Positions 3,230 to 33,325 of a stretch of 33,707 bases of DNA are shown here, one piece after another. Made by a program: the position numbers and the translations under genes. A model generated the notes under the pieces. The model made no database searches and was not told where the DNA came from. It saw only the letters and a list, made by a program, of their open reading frames with translations. Origin of the DNA: Acidobacteriota bacterium (GTDB lineage: Bacteria > Acidobacteriota > Terriglobia > Acidiferrales > UBA7541); contig QHYQ01000006.1 of the NCBI GenBank assembly GCA_003224175.1, forward strand, positions 1 to 33,707, in the 5' to 3' direction. Position 1 is the stretch's first letter. Each line of letters begins with the position of its first letter.

Positions 3230-4535
3230 CCTGAAGCAACTGGCGCGTCAAATCTTTTACGAAACGCTCGCGGCCATCGATATCCCCTTGGCCATGCGCC
3301 AAAAACTGGCGCGCACCGGCTCGCTGATTCGCTTTGATGACACTGTCGTCGATCTCGCAGCTTACGATCGCATCGTCGCTATCGCCGTCGGCAAAGCATC
3401 TGTGGCCATGGCGCAGGGCTTTGCCGATCTTCTTGCCACGGACTTTGCTTTTGAAGGCATTTTGGTCGCGCCGCACGAAAGCCTCTCTGATGTCCAAGGA
3501 TTCCGAGCCCTCGCCGCGGCTCACCCAATCCCCGACACCAGCAGCACCGCCGCTGCCCACGCCATAATCGATCTGCTCTCGCAATGCGATTCGCGCACGC
3601 TGGTATTTTTCTTGCTTTCCGGTGGCGGCTCGTCGCTTATCGAATTGCCCCTCGATCCCGGCGTCAGCCTCGAAAATCTCCAGCAACTGAATCGTGTGCT
3701 GGTGACTTCTGGCGCTTCGATTAACGAGATTAACGCGGTGCGCAAACATCTCTCCGCGGTCAAGGGCGGGCGATTGGCCGCCCTGGCCGCCGCGTCCATG
3801 AAGCTGTCTCTTGCCATCACCGATGTGCCCGCTGGATGCGAATCAGCGCTGGCATCCGGGCCCACACTCCCTGATCCGACTACGATCGCTGACGCTTGCC
3901 GCGTGATCGAAAAATATGATCTCGCTTCGAAGTTGCCTGCATCGATTCGCGCGAAATTCGCCCACCCTACATCGACTCCAGAGACGCCAAAGCCCGGCCA
4001 CCCCGCGTTTGCGCGGGCCCGGTTCTCGCTTCTGCTCACCATGCACGATCTCTTTCACCATGCCCACCAGGCCGCCGAATCCCGCGGTTTTCTAACCCAG
4101 TGTGATAATTCCAGCGACGACTGGCCCAGCGCTCGAGCTGCCGAATATTTGCTTGGCCAACTGGACCGCCTTGCGCACGCAGTTCCCGGCCGCCGTGTAG
4201 CCCTCATTGCAGATGGCGAAGTGAGTTCGCCCGTGCGCGGCAATGGCTTGGGCGGCCGTAATTCGGCATTTGTGCTGGACTGCGTGGAAAGGATCGCAGG
4301 GAAGGGAATTGCCGTGCTGAGTGCGGGGACCGATGGAAAGGACGGCTCAAGCCCGGCAGCCGGGGCTTTGGCCGATGGCACAACACTCGAAAGAGCGCGG
4401 GCAGAAACGCTAGATCCGCGAGAGTTCGCCGTGCGCAGCGATTCCTACAGCTTCTTCCACAAACTTGGAGACGCCATCGAGACCGGGCCCACCGGAAATA
4501 ATCTGCGCGACCTGCGCATCCTGCTCGCGGAATGA
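3222..4535 (+). CDS. Glycerate 2-kinase (DUF4147/MOFRL family)
   Basis: Predicted to phosphorylate D-glycerate to 2-phosphoglycerate with ATP, linking the upstream reductase to lower glycolysis. The DUF4147 domain fills roughly the first 230 residues, with the AVGKASVAMAQGF segment and the glycine-rich LSGGGSSLIELP loop. The C-terminal MOFRL domain carries GEVSSPVRGNGLGGRNSAF and SAGTDGKDGSSPAAGALADG. I place the start at GTG 3222, overlapping the glcG-like stop by 8 bases and giving 437 residues that begin at the usual family position. An open frame extends up to ATG 3132 but would overlap glcG by almost 100 bases. The gene ends exactly against the stop of the convergent aminopeptidase, leaving no intergenic terminator. 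Confidence 0.9.
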   Translation: MSDLKQLARQIFYETLAAIDIPLAMRQKLARTGSLIRFDDTVVDLAAYDRIVAIAVGKASVAMAQGFADLLATDFAFEGILVAPHESLSDVQGFRALAAAHPIPDTSSTAAAHAIIDLLSQCDSRTLVFFLLSGGGSSLIELPLDPGVSLENLQQLNRVLVTSGASINEINAVRKHLSAVKGGRLAALAAASMKLSLAITDVPAGCESALASGPTLPDPTTIADACRVIEKYDLASKLPASIRAKFAHPTSTPETPKPGHPAFARARFSLLLTMHDLFHHAHQAAESRGFLTQCDNSSDDWPSARAAEYLLGQLDRLAHAVPGRRVALIADGEVSSPVRGNGLGGRNSAFVLDCVERIAGKGIAVLSAGTDGKDGSSPAAGALADGTTLERARAETLDPREFAVRSDSYSFFHKLGDAIETGPTGNNLRDLRILLAE

Positions 4536-15403: not shown

Positions 15404-15614
15404 GGCTCATCCGGACCTTAGATCAGTTGGTGGACCGGCACCAATGCGCTTTACCATTTGATGCCCGACCCCGCGTTAAAGGCTTCACCTGAGGGGATCG
15501 TGCAGGAAATCACAAATGCCCCCGCGGAAGTACTGCTAGTGCTGCACCTCTTCCAGATCGGCAATTAGCTTAAGCCGATGCGGAAGGAAGGCCGTAATGC
15601 CGAGTGGCGGCGGT

Positions 15615-17726: not shown

Positions 17727-19025
17727 CTAGCGACGATTCCCTATTTGGTAGTTCAGTACCGACAATTGGGTTTGGTAGTCGTAAGTCGCGTTGACTTGCT
17801 CGATCTGCGCCTGGGTCAGATTTAATTGCGCTTGCGTGAGTTCGACGATCGAACTCAACCCCAGTTGGTAGCGCGACTGAGCCAGGTTCAAAGCTAAGGT
17901 CGCCTGGTTTACGAGTTGTTCGACCACGGAAAGGCGCTGGTAGCCGGAATTCGCGCCCAGCCAGGCCTTATTCACGTCGCGAACGATGCGATCCTGGAGA
18001 TCTCGAAGATTTTGCTGTTGTGCCAGCGCGCGCGCCGTCGCCTCATTACGTAGAGCGCCGAACGAATGCCCATTAAAAATCGGGATATTCACGTTAAAAC
18101 CAGCCGCGGCATATTGATCGTTGAGCCCGGCAGCGGCTGTATGGAAGGGGATGAGGCCGGCGGCGCCGACTGCGGAGATCGTCGGAAACCAAAGATCGCG
18201 CTCGGCGGTGGCAAAAGCCTGCGCAGAATTTACCTCGAATTGCTGGCTGATCAATTCCGGCCGATTCATCATGGCCTGCTGAATGAGACTCGTGAGATCC
18301 ATGGGTGGAGCAGGCGTCTGCGCCTGTTCGACCAGGTTGTAGCGTCGCTGATCGGCAAAACCGAGCGCCCTGGTCAAATCCGCATAGGAGGCCTGCAGAT
18401 TGTTTTGCGCCTGAATCAGAAGTAGCTGCGATTGTGCCAGGTCGACATTTGCAAAGGTCACATCTAACTGCGACTTGAGCAGATTTGCCGCCATCTGCGT
18501 CACTTGGTTGGAAACAAGTTGGCGCTCGCTGACCGTCTGCTGGGCGACTCGCAGGAGGGCCTGGGCACGCAGTACTCCGAAGTAGGACTGATCGACTTGC
18601 AGCAGCACGTCGGCGCGAGAAGTCACTACGTTCTCTTGCTGGGCCTGCGCATGTAGGTTGGAACTTTTCACAAATTGATGGGTACGTCCGAAGTCGCTAA
18701 TGAGCTGGCTTAGCGAGAAGCCATTGGCGTACTTATTAAAAACGCTCGGGGCATTTAGAAATCCGGCACCAATGCGGTTTGAATCCACCGCTTCCGCGCC
18801 CGTGAGGTTGCCGTTGGCGTTTGGATAATACGCGGCGCGGACTTCCCGGGTTTGGGCCTCGGCCGCTGAGGCAAGAGCGGTGGCAGCCTGAATTTGCGGA
18901 TGATTCTGGATCGCAAGCTGCTCCGCCTCCTGCAGGCTGAGTGTCTGGACGGTTTGGGCTGTGGCAAACGTTGAAACGAGCGTCATTACAGAAGCAAAAA
19001 TGAATAGCTGCCACGCGAGTTTCAT
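17727..19025 (-). CDS. TolC-family outer membrane efflux protein
   Basis: An outer-membrane factor of 432 residues that would form the exit duct of a tripartite RND pump. A signal peptide (1-23, ending ATAQ) is followed by two copies of the long coiled-coil OEP repeat. Examples are LSLQEAEQLAIQNHPQIQAA, LLQVDQSYFGVLRAQALLRV, and near the end LAQSRYQLGLSSIVELTQAQ and LNLTQAQIEQVNATYDYQTQ. Length and both halves look complete. Its ATG overlaps the permease stop as ATGA, so translation is probably coupled. It is the only undamaged gene of the three-gene pump operon. Downstream there are small hairpins at about 17686-17730 but no T run. Confidence 0.92.
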   Translation of the reverse strand: MKLAWQLFIFASVMTLVSTFATAQTVQTLSLQEAEQLAIQNHPQIQAATALASAAEAQTREVRAAYYPNANGNLTGAEAVDSNRIGAGFLNAPSVFNKYANGFSLSQLISDFGRTHQFVKSSNLHAQAQQENVVTSRADVLLQVDQSYFGVLRAQALLRVAQQTVSERQLVSNQVTQMAANLLKSQLDVTFANVDLAQSQLLLIQAQNNLQASYADLTRALGFADQRRYNLVEQAQTPAPPMDLTSLIQQAMMNRPELISQQFEVNSAQAFATAERDLWFPTISAVGAAGLIPFHTAAAGLNDQYAAAGFNVNIPIFNGHSFGALRNEATARALAQQQNLRDLQDRIVRDVNKAWLGANSGYQRLSVVEQLVNQATLALNLAQSRYQLGLSSIVELTQAQLNLTQAQIEQVNATYDYQTQLSVLNYQIGNRR

Positions 19026-21887
19026 TGCGCTTCTCCCAGCGCGCTTTGCACTTGCAACCCTTCACGGCGGCGGTAAATCAGCAGATAGGCCGCCGGCACC
19101 ACAAAGATGGTAAGCACGACGGAAGAAAGCAGCCCTCCGATAATCGCGCGAGCCAGGGGGGCATAAGCCTCGCTCCCAGTTTCGAGTTTGAAGGCCATGG
19201 GCAGCAATCCGACCACCGTCGCGAGCGAAGTCATCAGAATGGGGCGCAGGCGGATGCGGCAGGCGAGAGCCACAGCTTCAGCTGCGTTGTGACCTTCTCC
19301 GTGCAGCACGTTCGCGAAATCGACAATCAAGATGCTATTGGAGACCACCATGCCTTGCAGCATGACAATACCCATGAGCGACTGAATATTCAGTGTCGTG
19401 CCGGTCAGAACCAGAGTGAGGGCGACGCCGACCAATCCGGTCGGAACGGCAAGGATGATGAGGAAGGGATCGATGAAAGAAGAAAACTGCGCAACCAGTA
19501 TCAAGTAGACCAGCAAGACAGCCAGCACCAGACCTATGCCAAAACTGGCGAACGAAGATTGCATCGTGCGGATCAGTCCGCGCACGTTGATACGAATATT
19601 CGGCGGGAGTTTTGTCTCAGCAATAATCTTGGAGATTGTTTTTTCGGGATTTCCAAGATCTTCGCCGGAAGGCGCAACATAGATGTCGAAGGCTCTCTGC
19701 AACTGGTAATGGTCGACCTCCGTGGGGGTGAGGATGGTGCTGACGTCCGCGACTTGGTTCAGATACGTCGGCATCTTCAGGTTTGGCGCGCGCAGAGGCA
19801 TAGCTTTCAAATCGTCCACCGTTCTTACTTGGTTTTCAGGGTATTGCACGGTGACAAAGTAATTGTTGCCGCTCCGTGGATCCACCCAATAGGCGGGCGC
19901 GATCATGGCGTTGGAGGTGAGGGCGGTGACCAGGTTATCGATTACCTCTTTGGGGTCCAATCCAAGCTGGCTGGCGCGTTCGCGATTCACATCCACTTGC
20001 AACGCCGGATAGTCCATATCCTGCGGCGTGTAGATATCGGAAACGCCAGGAACCGACCGGAACTCTTGCGTCAATTGCTGGGCGATACCGTTGACCGTGG
20101 GGAGGTCCGCCCCGCTCACCTGCACATCAATGGGCGCTGGAGCGCCTTGATTCAGAACGGCGTCCACCAAGCCGCCGGACTGGAAATAGGTGCGCAATTC
20201 GGGGAGATCGCGCGCAATTCGATCTCGAGCGGATAGAGGGCGAAGCTGAGGGCGGTTACGGCAGCAAAACCCCAGATCACTTGTTTCGGCCGCTCCAGCG
20301 CCTTTCTTACCCATTTATCGTAAAGCCTCAACAAACGCTCAAAGCCAGCATTGAACCGCGTATGGATGTGCGCTCCCCAGGAAGGGGCCCGCGGCTCGGA
20401 TTCGTGGCCGTGCCCCGAAATTCGACGCAGGACCTTGGAACAGTAAAGGGGAACTACCGAGACCGCGACGACGTAAGAAGCCAGGAGCGAGATCACCACG
20501 CCTAAGGCCAACGCGGTGAACAGGTACTTGCTGACACCAAACAGAAGGGTAACAGGGAAAAAGACGACGACGGTGACAAAGGTGATCGCCAGAACGGCCA
20601 GGGCAACTTCGTTGGAGCCGTGTTCGGCGGCCACTACGGATTCTTCGCCCAATTCGAGATGGCGGAAGATATTTTCCAGTACGACTACGGAATTGTCGAT
20701 CAACCGCGAAAAGGCCAAGGCCAGCCCACTGAGCACCATGCTGTCAATGGAACTGCCGCCCAGATGAAGTATGAAAAAAGTGGCCATCACAGAGAGCGGG
20801 ATGGAGAGGAATACCGCGGCGGTAGCGCGGGGACTGCCGAGAAAAATCAAAATCATGAAGCCGGTAAGGAGGAGGCCAATGCCGCCTTCATGCAAAACAG
20901 TAAGATGGCCTGCTTTACAAACAGAGATTGATCGAAAACGACGGCGGTCTTCAACTGAGCGGGAATATCGCGTAAAGACTGAATCGCTTTTTCGATACCG
21001 TTGACAAGTTCAATGGTATTGGTATTTCCGCCTTGCTTCTGAACTGCGACATATACGGACTTCTGGCCATTGACTCTGACGATGTTGTACTGCAACGCGG
21101 AGCCGTCCACCGCCTTGCCTACGTCCGAAGCAAAGACGGACTGCTGCCCCTCGGTCTTAAGCGAGATCTCGTTAAGGGCCTGGGCATTGGGCACCTGGGC
21201 GTTCGTGTAGATGTTGTAGTCCATGGGGCCGATGCGCACATCCCCGGCGGGCAAGATGAGATTGGAGGCATCCGTGGCGCGGACCACGTCCATCGGGCTC
21301 AATTCGTGTGCCTGCAGTTTGACCGGATCAACATAGACCATGATTTGCCGGTACTTGCCGCCAAAGGGCGGAGGCACCGTCGCGCCCGGAACGCCGGCGA
21401 TCTGATTGCGTATCTGATACTGCAAATAGTCGTGGAGCTGCGTTTCGTCCAGGCCCTCGCCTTGCACCGTAAGCAAGCAGACCGGCAGGCTCGAGGCATC
21501 GACCTTCAGAACCACCGGTGGGAGCGTTCCTTGAGGTAGCCTCCGCAAATCCGCCATAGCCAGATTCGAAATCTGGGTGACATCGGCATTGGCGTCGGTA
21601 CCGGGCTGGAAATAGATCTTGATGAGGCTGACGCCAGTCATGGAGCGGGATTCCATGTGATCCACGCCGCCCGCCAGTGTGAAGAAGCGTTCAAATGTGT
21701 CCGTGATATCTGCTTCGATCTGCTGTGGCGGCATACCACTGTAAAAGGTGGCCACCAGCACGACCGGAATGTTGATGGGCGGAAACATATCCACCGGCAT
21801 TTGCACAACGCTGGTGACTCCAAGCACGCAGAGAAAAAGGCAAGACACGATGATCAAATAGGGATGTCGAATGGAAAAGGAGGGCAT
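19022..21887 (-). pseudogene. RND efflux permease, broken by a frameshift and an internal deletion
   Basis: A proton-driven inner-membrane efflux pump of the AcrB/HAE type, read in three frames. Frame one (from ATG 21887) gives the first transmembrane helix, MPVDMFPPINIPVVLVATFY and the porter domain, to FDQSLFVKQAI near 20904. One missing base there moves the reading to LHEGGIGLLLTGFMILIFLG, LALAFSRLIDNSVVVLENIF and further helices. Near 20221-20235 the sequence jumps from ALYPL to RIARDLPELRTYFQSGGLVD, omitting most of the second periplasmic start that the family has, about 75-85 residues by my recollection, and shifting frame again. The last part runs to the end with normal helices. Total about 955 codons against the usual 1,030-1,060. 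The active-site pair reads Asp-Asn (LIDNS) rather than Asp-Asp, which I believe is normal for this subfamily. As written it cannot make a functional pump. Confidence 0.85.
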
Positions 21888-21891
21888 CGGA

Positions 21892-22948
21892 TTACTGCTC
21901 CATTTCTTGAGACTCCATGGCCTTCGGTGCGACCCTTTGACCGGGCTGATACTGTCCCTGCGATCCGAAAATCACACGATCGTTTTCTTTTAAGCCGGAG
22001 ACAATTTCGATTTCTGTAGCCGTTTGCAGACCGAGCGTGACCGTACGCCTCTCGATCTGATTGGAATCATTTACGAGCAAAACTGTTCCCTTATCCTGGC
22101 CGGAAGGCTGGACCACCTGGGTGGGAACGGCTAACACCCTCGCCGCTTTGTGCAGGGGAATGTCCACGGAAGCGTACATTCCGGGGACGAGGTTGTAATT
22201 CGCATTGGGGACTTCCACTTCGGTGTGCATGGTGCGCGTCTGTGTATCAATCTGATCTGAGAAGCGAATCCTTATCCAGTGTGGCTTTCGCCGCCACCAA
22301 TGCTTGTTCTGCAGACGCGAGTGAAGCTTTGGCGGCGGAAACACCGGCACTCGCTTCCAGGTCCTTTCCTTCGGAAACGTCGATATCCTCTTGCGCCACT
22401 AGCCCCGGTTGCGATTTTTGCACGTCCGCCAGACGCGAATAAGTCAGGTGCGCAACTTTGTATGCCGAATTCGCGCGGTTGAGTTCCTCGCGGGCGCGCT
22501 CGAGATCGCTCTCGCTGCGGTGAACGGTAGCCTCATCTTCCTGCAGTTGCTGTTGTAATTCGGGAATCTCCAAATCCGCCAGAACCTGCCCGGCTCTAAC
22601 ATGCGTGCCCCAATTTACGTGGAGCTTCTGGATATATCCGGAGACCTTGGCATACACCTCGATTTCCTGGTAAGGCTGGAATTCAGACGCAATTTCCAGA
22701 GTATTCGCAAGATCGCGGCGTACGACATTAACGACGGCGACCACCGGCGCAGCGGCGGAGGCATCGACTTTCGCGGGCCGGGCACACCCGGAAAAGATGC
22801 TTGTCCATGCAATCAATGCGAGCAGATAGCATCCGAATGCCTGCCCGGAGCGGTGAGAGGCCTTACTGGATAATCCCGGCGCTTTATTAACGAAGAGCAG
22901 GTGACTGCCGGAAGATGGGTGCGCTTCGAGATCAATTGTAGTAGTCAT
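21892..22948 (-). pseudogene. RND adaptor (membrane fusion protein), broken by an internal deletion
   Basis: Periplasmic adaptor joining permease and TolC. The N-terminal part (ATG 22948) has a lipoprotein-like hydrophobic segment with SGCARP, the lipoyl half GYIQKLHVNWGTHVRAGQVL and a long coiled coil up to VAAKATLDKDS. At about 22262-22275 the reading frame ends, and homology continues in another frame with RFSDQIDTQTRTMHTEVEV, VPGMYASVDIPLHKAARVL and GLKENDRVIFGSQGQYQPGQ. The second lipoyl strand and most of the beta-barrel (roughly 70 residues) are missing. The frame change corresponds to a loss of 3n+2 bases. AAGGA lies about 10 bases before the ATG. The stop is 4 bases from the permease start. 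Confidence 0.85.
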
Positions 22949-31148: not shown

Positions 31149-32162
31149 CTACTTCTTCGCGAACCTTCGAAAATTCATCGTGTTGGTAAAGCCACCATAA
31201 ACGTTACCCTGGTCGTCTGCGGCGACGGCTTCCAGCGTGTTCGTTTCCGACCAGGGAATGAACTCCGTGACTTTGCCGTCCTTGACCTTCCCGATTCGAA
31301 TGCCTTGCTGGAAGCCGGGATTGGTCTTGTCAGTCGAGGTCGAGTCGGAGACGTAGATGATATTCTTCTTGTCGATAAATATTCCGCTGGGCCGCCCGAA
31401 TTGCCTCCATTCTTCGAGGAATTTGCCATTCTGGTCGAAGATCTGAATGCGGCTGTTCCCGCGGTCGGCAACGAAGAGTCGCCCGGCGGCATCCATGGCC
31501 AGCCCGTGCGGCGTGTCGAATTCGCCCAGGCCGGACCCTTTCTTGCCCCAAGCCTTGATGAATTTGCCCTCTTTCGTCAGCTTCACGATCCGCGCGTTCG
31601 TCTCGCCGCCATGTCCGTCGGCGACGAAGATGTCGCCATTCGGCACAACCAAAACGTCGGAAGGTCCGTTGAAGGTGTCCGGGCCATCGCCGGCGACGCC
31701 GGGCTTGCCCAACGTCATCAAGAGCTTTCCCTCCGGACTGAACTTCATGACCGTTTGCCCCTTGCCGTTCTTTGTCCTGCCGTCGCACACCCAAATGTTG
31801 TCTTCCCGATCCACGAACATACCGTGCGGATAATTGAACATTCCGGCGCCGAAGCTGGTCACGAGCTTGCCGAAGGCATCGAACTTCTGAATCGGCGCCA
31901 GATTCGACCCGGAGCAATCATCGGCCGTGCCGCAGCGGTCAAAAACCCAGACGCTCTTGCCGTCGCGGTCGATATCCACACCGATGGCCGCGCCCCACTT
32001 ACGCCCTTGGGGCAGTTTTGCCCAGCCTTCGTCCAAGTGATAGGGATTCGGCGCCGCATTCGGATCGGCGCCGGTTTGAGCGAAGCTTCCTTGCCCCTGC
32101 ATCCCCATCGTAGCGACGATGGCGAGGCCCAGTGCGTACCGAATGCGATATGCATGCCACAT
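31149..32162 (-). CDS. Exported NHL-repeat beta-propeller protein
   Basis: A 337-residue protein with a signal peptide (about 8-29, ending SFAQ) and six or so NHL repeats. Examples are IQKFDAFGKLVTSFGAGMFN with YPHGMFVDREDNIWVCDG, VMKFSPEGKLLMTLGKPG, IVKLTKEGKFIKAWGKKG with TPHGLAMDAAGRLFVADRGN, and IQIFDQNGKFLEEWRQFG. The pattern is like the peptidyl-alpha-hydroxyglycine alpha-amidating lyase propeller of peptide-amidating enzymes, but catalytic identity cannot be claimed. AAGGAGG is 8 bases before ATG 32162. The upstream cytochrome frame runs on across its first 304 bases because of the lesion near 32186. Confidence 0.88.
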   Translation of the reverse strand: MWHAYRIRYALGLAIVATMGMQGQGSFAQTGADPNAAPNPYHLDEGWAKLPQGRKWGAAIGVDIDRDGKSVWVFDRCGTADDCSGSNLAPIQKFDAFGKLVTSFGAGMFNYPHGMFVDREDNIWVCDGRTKNGKGQTVMKFSPEGKLLMTLGKPGVAGDGPDTFNGPSDVLVVPNGDIFVADGHGGETNARIVKLTKEGKFIKAWGKKGSGLGEFDTPHGLAMDAAGRLFVADRGNSRIQIFDQNGKFLEEWRQFGRPSGIFIDKKNIIYVSDSTSTDKTNPGFQQGIRIGKVKDGKVTEFIPWSETNTLEAVAADDQGNVYGGFTNTMNFRRFAKK

Positions 32163-33001
32163 GGCGTCTTTCCTCCTTGGGTGCGCCGGGGCACTTCACC
32201 GAGGCCCTTCAGGTCGTCCCCGTGGCAGATTGCGCATTGAATCGTTTTGCCAGCGCCACCGGTTTTCACCAGCGCTTCCCCCTTGGCGATGCTGCCCGGA
32301 GGGACGTAAGCGATAAAGGCCGAGTGAGGATCGCGAATCGATGTTTGCATTGGATCCACCGGCGTTTCGATGATGCGATGACCGATGGGCTCCTTGCCGC
32401 CGTCCGGAACTAAAACACGATGTCGCGCGTCGCTGCTGACGTAGGTTTTCGGCGGAGTGGCGGTTTCGATCACCTTCACCCACGGAATGGGCTTGATGGC
32501 CGCAAAATAATCCGCCGCCTGCCGTACATCTTCATCGGATACATTCTTAGCAATCGGAGTCATGCGCTCGTTTTCCCGCCGGGCTCCGCTCTTGAAATAT
32601 TTCATCTGGCGCACGATGTACTCGGCGGGAAGGCCGGCGATATCGGCGGACTCAGGATGGCCTTGGCCGGACATGAGGTGGCAGGTGCCACACGTTGCCC
32701 CTGGAGGTGCGTTCGGGCCCTTCACGATCCCGGGTGCCGCAGGGTGCTCCTCGGGAAACCAGTCCGGCGGATTGGTCGCGCTGCGGACCTGGGCCGCGTC
32801 GTACTCCTTGGTGCTGCCGGGGACGTGGATCGTGCCAGACAACGGTGTCGCCGGGGGCTGATCCTTGTCCGGGATGTTATAGGCCCACGAGGGCAGGCCA
32901 TTGGGAACCGATGTCGGCGTTGGCGCTTGCGCCGCAACCCGCAATCCGGCCACCAACGCGAACAGCAGGGCAGCGCTGGTCTGTTTGCTCATATTGCTCA
33001 T
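31859..33001 (-). pseudogene. c-type cytochrome truncated in its second haem domain, frame running into NHL gene
   Basis: An exported dihaem cytochrome c. From ATG 33001 (GGAG 9 bases upstream; ATG 33007 is the alternative) it has a signal peptide ending VAAQ. Its first haem domain has CGTCH, GLPAEYIVRQMKYFKSGARR, and MTPIAKNVSDEDVRQAADYF with a Met ligand. The second haem motif is CAICH in IQCAICHGDDLKGLGEVPR. At about 32186 recognisable sequence stops. The family normally continues with LAG-x-P-x-Y-I and a helical end of some 50 residues. Here the frame enters the ribosome binding site and out-of-phase coding sequence of the NHL gene, adding a tail of about 110 meaningless residues to 31859. 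The missing C-terminus and intergenic DNA suggest a deletion. Confidence 0.8.
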
Positions 33002-33325
33002 AAGCATTCGCTCCCGAAAGTTTCTCAGAAAGTGCGATAAAGCATACACCCGGATGGCAAGCTTCGTTTATCAGTACTAAAAAGCGGTAGAGGGTTGGTT
33101 TCCGAGAATGCCGTTTCTCTGGACTTGGCCGGGCTTTTCCCCTTAATGTTTGGCCCCTGTTCCGCCTCGATCAGATCGTCTTTAGCGGTACTTCCCATAC
33201 TCCGGAGAGAGGGTACTACTAAAACCACAGTACGCCTGAATTTGGGTCCAGCAGCCCATTGAGGACTCGTGGCTGTGGGTCCGAATATCCTTTGTGAGAT
33301 TCAACAGGATGAAAGCGAAACTCCC
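33002..33325. other. Divergent intergenic region
   Basis: About 320 bases between the divergent truncated cytochrome gene and the PilZ gene. Promoters for both should lie here. I see no convincing -10/-35 pair, hairpin or small gene. The interval includes an in-frame GTG (33269) that could lengthen the PilZ protein by 19 residues. Confidence 0.3.

Follow-up and report, generated by a model that had tools for sequence, protein, structure and literature searches.

The c-type cytochrome gene that in this stretch of DNA reads out of frame into its neighbour, a gene for an NHL-repeat protein, very probably owes its truncated form to an assembly artefact. The window (the whole stretch analysed, 33,707 bases) is an entire contig, C389, of the draft genome bin G000 (624 contigs, 5,618,620 bases, 85% complete), and it was compared with three genomes of the same genus, G001, G002 and G003. 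The cytochrome gene lacks a stretch that its kin possess, and clean losses about 250 bp in size form a class in the bin that kin lack; one of these losses breaks rpoB. We favour an artefact because such losses recur in G000 and hardly in the relatives, because rpoB is frameshifted and another loss lies in the same window, and because the junctions resemble blunt cuts while the retained part of the cytochrome appears free of relaxed selection.

The cytochrome gene and its junction with the NHL gene

The cytochrome open reading frame runs on the minus strand from 33049 to 31859 and contains the haem motifs CGTCH and CAICH; its most likely start is the ATG at 33007. The retained part of this dihaem c-type cytochrome (32186..33007, minus strand) comprises the N-terminal part, the first haem domain, which matches PF13442, and the start of the second domain up to GLGEVPR, and shares 93% amino acid identity with the G002 orthologue. 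The frame reads ...CAICHGDDLKGLGEVPR and then RTQGGKTPCG..., the last residue that belongs to the family being the Arg of GLGEVPR, whose CGG codon ends at 32186. Only seven bases (32185-32179) separate this codon from AAGGAGG (32178-32172, minus strand), the probable ribosome-binding site of the NHL gene; in G001 and G002, too, the NHL ATG has GGAGGAA ahead of it. The NHL gene itself (31149..32162, minus strand, ATG at 32162-32160) is intact and open from end to end. It encodes 337 aa, matches PF01436 (E 1.5e-23) and aligns with its orthologues in G001 (residues 3-336, 92% identity) and G002 (residues 5-337, 89%). The remainder of the cytochrome frame (31859..32185, minus strand) lies mostly over the NHL gene in another frame and ends at the stop at 31859; no family resemblance was found in this tail, nor does it add a Pfam match. 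The sequence-only reading, which had the second haem domain stop after GLGEVPR at about 32186, within nine bases of the ribosome-binding site, and had the cytochrome frame run 304 bases into an untouched NHL gene, agrees with these results, the overlap (31859-32162) being exactly 304 bases.

The junction at which the flanks of the missing stretch abut lies at 32184..32191. A blastn comparison with the G001 contig C320 yields two window pieces, 31149-32191 and 32187-32446, with 182 G001 bases between them. The pieces share five bases of the window (32187-32191, CCCCG). The cytochromes of G001 (C320) and G002 (C95) continue with EVPRLAGLQPVY...LMKKVV...SLPP to a stop codon, and since both run through a full cytochrome end, the end in the window is a loss relative to kin and not a product of chance divergence. 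In G002 the protein has 54 more residues, LAGLQPVYVARQLICMQNGASAGTAVALMKKVVANLSEDDIISISAYLGSLPPR, followed by a spacer of 215 bases and the NHL gene; in G001 the spacer from stop codon to NHL ATG measures 42 bases. From the Arg codon to the NHL ATG there are 23 bases in the window, 207 in G001 and 380 in G002, the window being shorter by 184 or 357 bases, respectively. The window cytochrome does not contain two complete haem domains, as it has one Pfam cytochrome stretch against two in the G002 orthologue. Its first haem domain is intact with an unchanged family match, and the CAICH motif has been kept, whereas the missing stretch holds a conserved Met that we take to be an axial haem ligand.

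A complete C-terminal end was found in 35 of 37 distinct relative loci, and the other two are interrupted by contig ends. These 37 combine a set of 28 loci (26 complete, two cut by contig ends, with the weak partial match L025 excluded) and a set of 14 (13 complete, one cut) that have five in common. The 14 were drawn from a set of 30 loci, with 16 distant ones (L053-L068) left out. In another search, 30 of 51 matching places were turned into loci; of the other 21 places two were read separately, namely G001:C320 and a G000 paralogue on C73, whose loss is internal and leaves the C-terminus in place, and which stands outside the 37. Within the flanks covered, only the G001 and G002 loci of the 14-locus set have an NHL neighbour. 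The comparison of related cytochrome-NHL pairs, as proposed in the sequence-only reading, thus gave a complete cytochrome end and a spacer in both; a fused arrangement like that of the window, the observation that would have spoken against it, was found in none of the 37 loci. That reading had described the junction as typical of a deletion and not of natural overlapping genes. The loss holds, as does the rejection of an overlapping pair, in view of the full ends and spacers in G001 and G002; whether the organism itself had lost the stretch was left open there, and the evidence points to the assembly.

Two further observations concern these relatives. The G001 contigs C320 and C316 (loci L033 and L034) both end within the cytochrome; over the 185 bases that they have in common the identity is only 94.6%, suggesting mixed strains or a gene present twice. 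NHL-repeat proteins form a large family in this genus, with 37 matches in G000, 34 in G001, 48 in G002 and 29 in G003 (stretches, not genes).

Over 274 codons the window cytochrome is separated from that of G002 by 61.3 synonymous changes and 20.7 non-synonymous ones, corresponding to a dN/dS of 0.086; for the NHL pair the ratio is 0.130. When changes were assigned to branches, the window branch received 12 synonymous and 3 non-synonymous changes with G001:C316 as outgroup (G002 branch: 27 and 6), 3 and 1 with G001:C320 (G002 branch: 7 and 1), and 15 and 1 with G054 (G002 branch: 11 and 2). Neither the dN/dS value nor the branch counts with these three outgroups gave a sign of relaxed selection on the retained part, and nothing in the figures suggests a drifted pseudogene.

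Clean losses across the draft genome

The frequency of such losses was determined by aligning 28 pieces of G000 (424,421 of its 5,618,620 bases) with 28 pieces each of G002 and G001. The pieces are not a random sample, as they surround matches to cytochromes, NHL proteins, tRNA synthetases, rpoC and ribosomal protein L2. A loss was counted as clean when no more than 15 bases remained in one genome where the other had 60 or more, with collinear blastn pieces on either side. Relative to G002, G000 shows 22 such losses over 217,812 aligned bases, of which 16 measure 203-292 bp, a band chosen after the sizes had been seen; over the same bases G002 has 17 relative to G000, with a single one in the band (210 bp). 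The 16 losses have a mean size of 251 bp (sd 28). Below 180 bp the balance is reversed, with ten clean losses of 62-130 bp in G002 against three in G000. Against G001 (117,093 bases) G000 has 11 clean losses, eight of them in the band, and G001 has one, outside it, whereas the comparison between G001 and G002 (145,387 bases) gave two and six clean losses, respectively, and none of 203-292 bp. G001 aligns on both sides of eight of the 16 sites, and at all eight the stretch is present; it aligns on one side of one site and on neither side of the other seven.

The net length of these 16 losses is a multiple of three in five cases, which is the chance level, whereas losses that living cells tolerate should favour whole codons. 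The overlaps at their junctions are no different from those in the 368 measurable among 400 simulated blunt cuts (Mann-Whitney p 0.96), and so give no hint of microhomology at work or of a long word common to the joins. Overlaps of at least five bases, the size seen at the cytochrome junction, arise in 12% of the simulated cuts. The G000 pieces consist of A, C, G and T only over all 424,421 bases; runs of N occur twice in the G001 pieces and three times in those of G002. A dropout of coverage that depends on GC content was also considered, and no significant difference was found between the missing stretches (mean GC 0.575) and their flanks (0.595; Wilcoxon p 0.083). Thirteen of the 16 losses lie wholly inside an open reading frame, taken per site as the longest one over it, which in some cases may be a shadow frame.

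One of the 16 affects rpoB. On G000 contig C599 (around position 4382 of locus L173) the gene lacks the part that encodes residues 251-337 in G002, with a change of frame. The G002 protein matches six Pfam models of the RNA polymerase beta subunit, and its gene lies beside an rpoC match. A query of 98 aa that covers the missing part found nothing in G000 at E 1, but matched in G001, G002 and G003. A working RNA polymerase beta subunit is indispensable to a cell, which argues that the clean losses of G000 are not biological. Also among the 16 are an SMC gene on C237 that lacks residues 935-1016 and the paralogous dihaem cytochrome on C73 (L036/L097, around position 15594), with a clean internal loss of 292 bp at a stretch present in both G001 and G002.

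The window contains a second junction, at 20227..20230, where 96-97 residues, or about 290 bp, are missing from an RND pump gene and the frame changes. Three homologues have open frames of 1055-1062 aa, and in the comparison with all three, residue 404/405 is followed directly by 502 at this place; positions 546-666 of the Pfam ACR_tran profile are left unmatched between the two RND frames of the window. This loss looks like a member of the same artefact class. For the longer window genes in synteny with G002 the alignment keeps to a single frame, with the exception of the cytochrome and the RND region; further exceptions are a short open reading frame beside a run of N in G002 and frames that may be shadows.

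The RND region shows some additional peculiarities. The efflux operon as a whole (19022-22948, minus strand) is split into several open reading frames, with a small frame change near 20901-20904, and two frames of the HlyD region meet near 22250-22350. At the matching place in G002 (L032, 5399-5529) most of the operon is seemingly absent and a scrap of the TolC region has been kept, which is 97-98% identical to window positions 18252-18289 and 18360-18454 in surroundings of about 85-88% identity.

Artefact, deletion or natural form

In all likelihood the organism possesses an ordinary dihaem, cytochrome c4-like c-type cytochrome followed by a short spacer and the NHL gene, as in G001 and G002. 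Some 54 codons at the end of the cytochrome are missing from the draft, together with a portion of the spacer; the flanks were very probably joined end to end, so that the cytochrome frame now runs on into the NHL gene in another register. As a probable cause we propose that flanks were joined where a gap had been left unassembled, such as one in a scaffold from which the Ns had been removed. Joins of this kind would explain the losses, the damage to rpoB, the chance-like lengths and overlaps, and the absence of N. We infer that the cytochrome junction belongs to the class of clean losses of about 250 bp; it is not one of the 16, because in the comparison with G002 the varying length of its spacer breaks the 15-base rule, and its size, 184 bp by G001 or 357 bp by G002, falls outside the 203-292 bp band but brackets it. 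The stretch is present in close relatives and was not found in G000, the lesion recurs, and an indispensable gene is hit. The possibility that the cytochrome end is located on another contig was considered and found no support: the best match in a DNA search of G000 spans 31 bases (E 0.05), and a protein search gave, apart from the truncated gene, paralogues with identities of 49% and 54% and weaker partial matches. Two other candidates were rejected. A base-calling frameshift does not account for the loss of a whole stretch in a window whose longer syntenic genes, apart from the RND region, align in one frame; an insertion element of about 250 bp common to the relatives is at odds with the location of several missing pieces inside conserved, Pfam-named proteins (RNA polymerase beta, SMC, UbiA, adenosine deaminase, RNA methyltransferase and a SurA-like protein).

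A real and recent genomic deletion, perhaps through the CCCCG microhomology, would have removed the C-terminus and spacer, leaving the NHL gene untouched and the cytochrome as a pseudogene that has not yet decayed. The loss is indeed clean, with a five-base overlap at the join; its size lies outside the band in both comparisons, and if the event were very recent, the purifying selection seen on what remains would be no objection. However, in a bin full of such losses, a frameshifted rpoB included, one more clean loss weighs little, and the class shows no excess of junction overlap, so that we consider such a deletion quite unlikely. Should the junction nevertheless be real in the population, which we hold to be very unlikely, a very recent deletion would have converted a dihaem carrier into a one-haem protein whose frame overlaps that of the NHL gene and to which the latter may be translationally coupled.

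The same arrangement could also represent a naturally shortened cytochrome with one working haem, translationally coupled to the NHL gene and kept by selection. The two genes share a strand and the ribosome-binding site is a good one, and the intact first haem domain would serve such a protein. Against this, the second domain is full wherever contig ends do not interrupt the relative loci, CAICH is kept in the window whereas the stretch with the conserved Met is lost, and the tail is nothing but the NHL gene read in another frame; as a natural overlapping pair the two genes are contradicted by G001 and G002, where the overlap is not conserved and spacers of 42 and 215 bases, respectively, stand in its place. 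A natural short form is therefore extremely improbable, and an assembly artefact remains our preferred explanation.

Consequences and comparison with known systems

The truncated cytochrome is in itself ordinary and hardly of biological weight. The caution it calls for is more general: the G000 pieces carry roughly one clean loss of about 250 bp per 14 kb aligned (16 in 217.8 kb), unmarked by Ns. Without read support, genes in G000 that are broken or look like pseudogenes, and likewise its unusual overlaps and changes of frame, those of the window included, should not be read as evolution, and any phylogeny or annotation based on the rpoB of the bin would be affected by its damage.

Metagenome-assembled genomes are limited by gaps and by local errors of assembly, according to Chen et al. 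2020 (PMC7111523), and where these are left uncorrected, incomplete or incorrect protein-coding genes enter public databases. The window cytochrome looks like such a case. The errors named in the passages cited are unsupported consensus, misplaced Ns and miscounted repeats, whereas the G000 losses are N-free blunt joins of a near-constant size of about 250 bp. Diamond et al. 2019 (PMC6784897) describe a workflow in which paired reads of 250 bp were assembled with IDBA-UD and scaffolding errors were corrected.

Finally, the intact G002 orthologue resembles the cytochrome c4 family in that two of its stretches match cytochrome c4 chains (6q2u, E 3.9e-17; 8uf3, E 1e-16) and two Pfam cytochrome stretches are present. 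It differs from cytochrome c4 in its longer N-terminal part, and in G001 and G002 an NHL gene lies downstream; the window copy differs in addition by the absence of most of the second domain.
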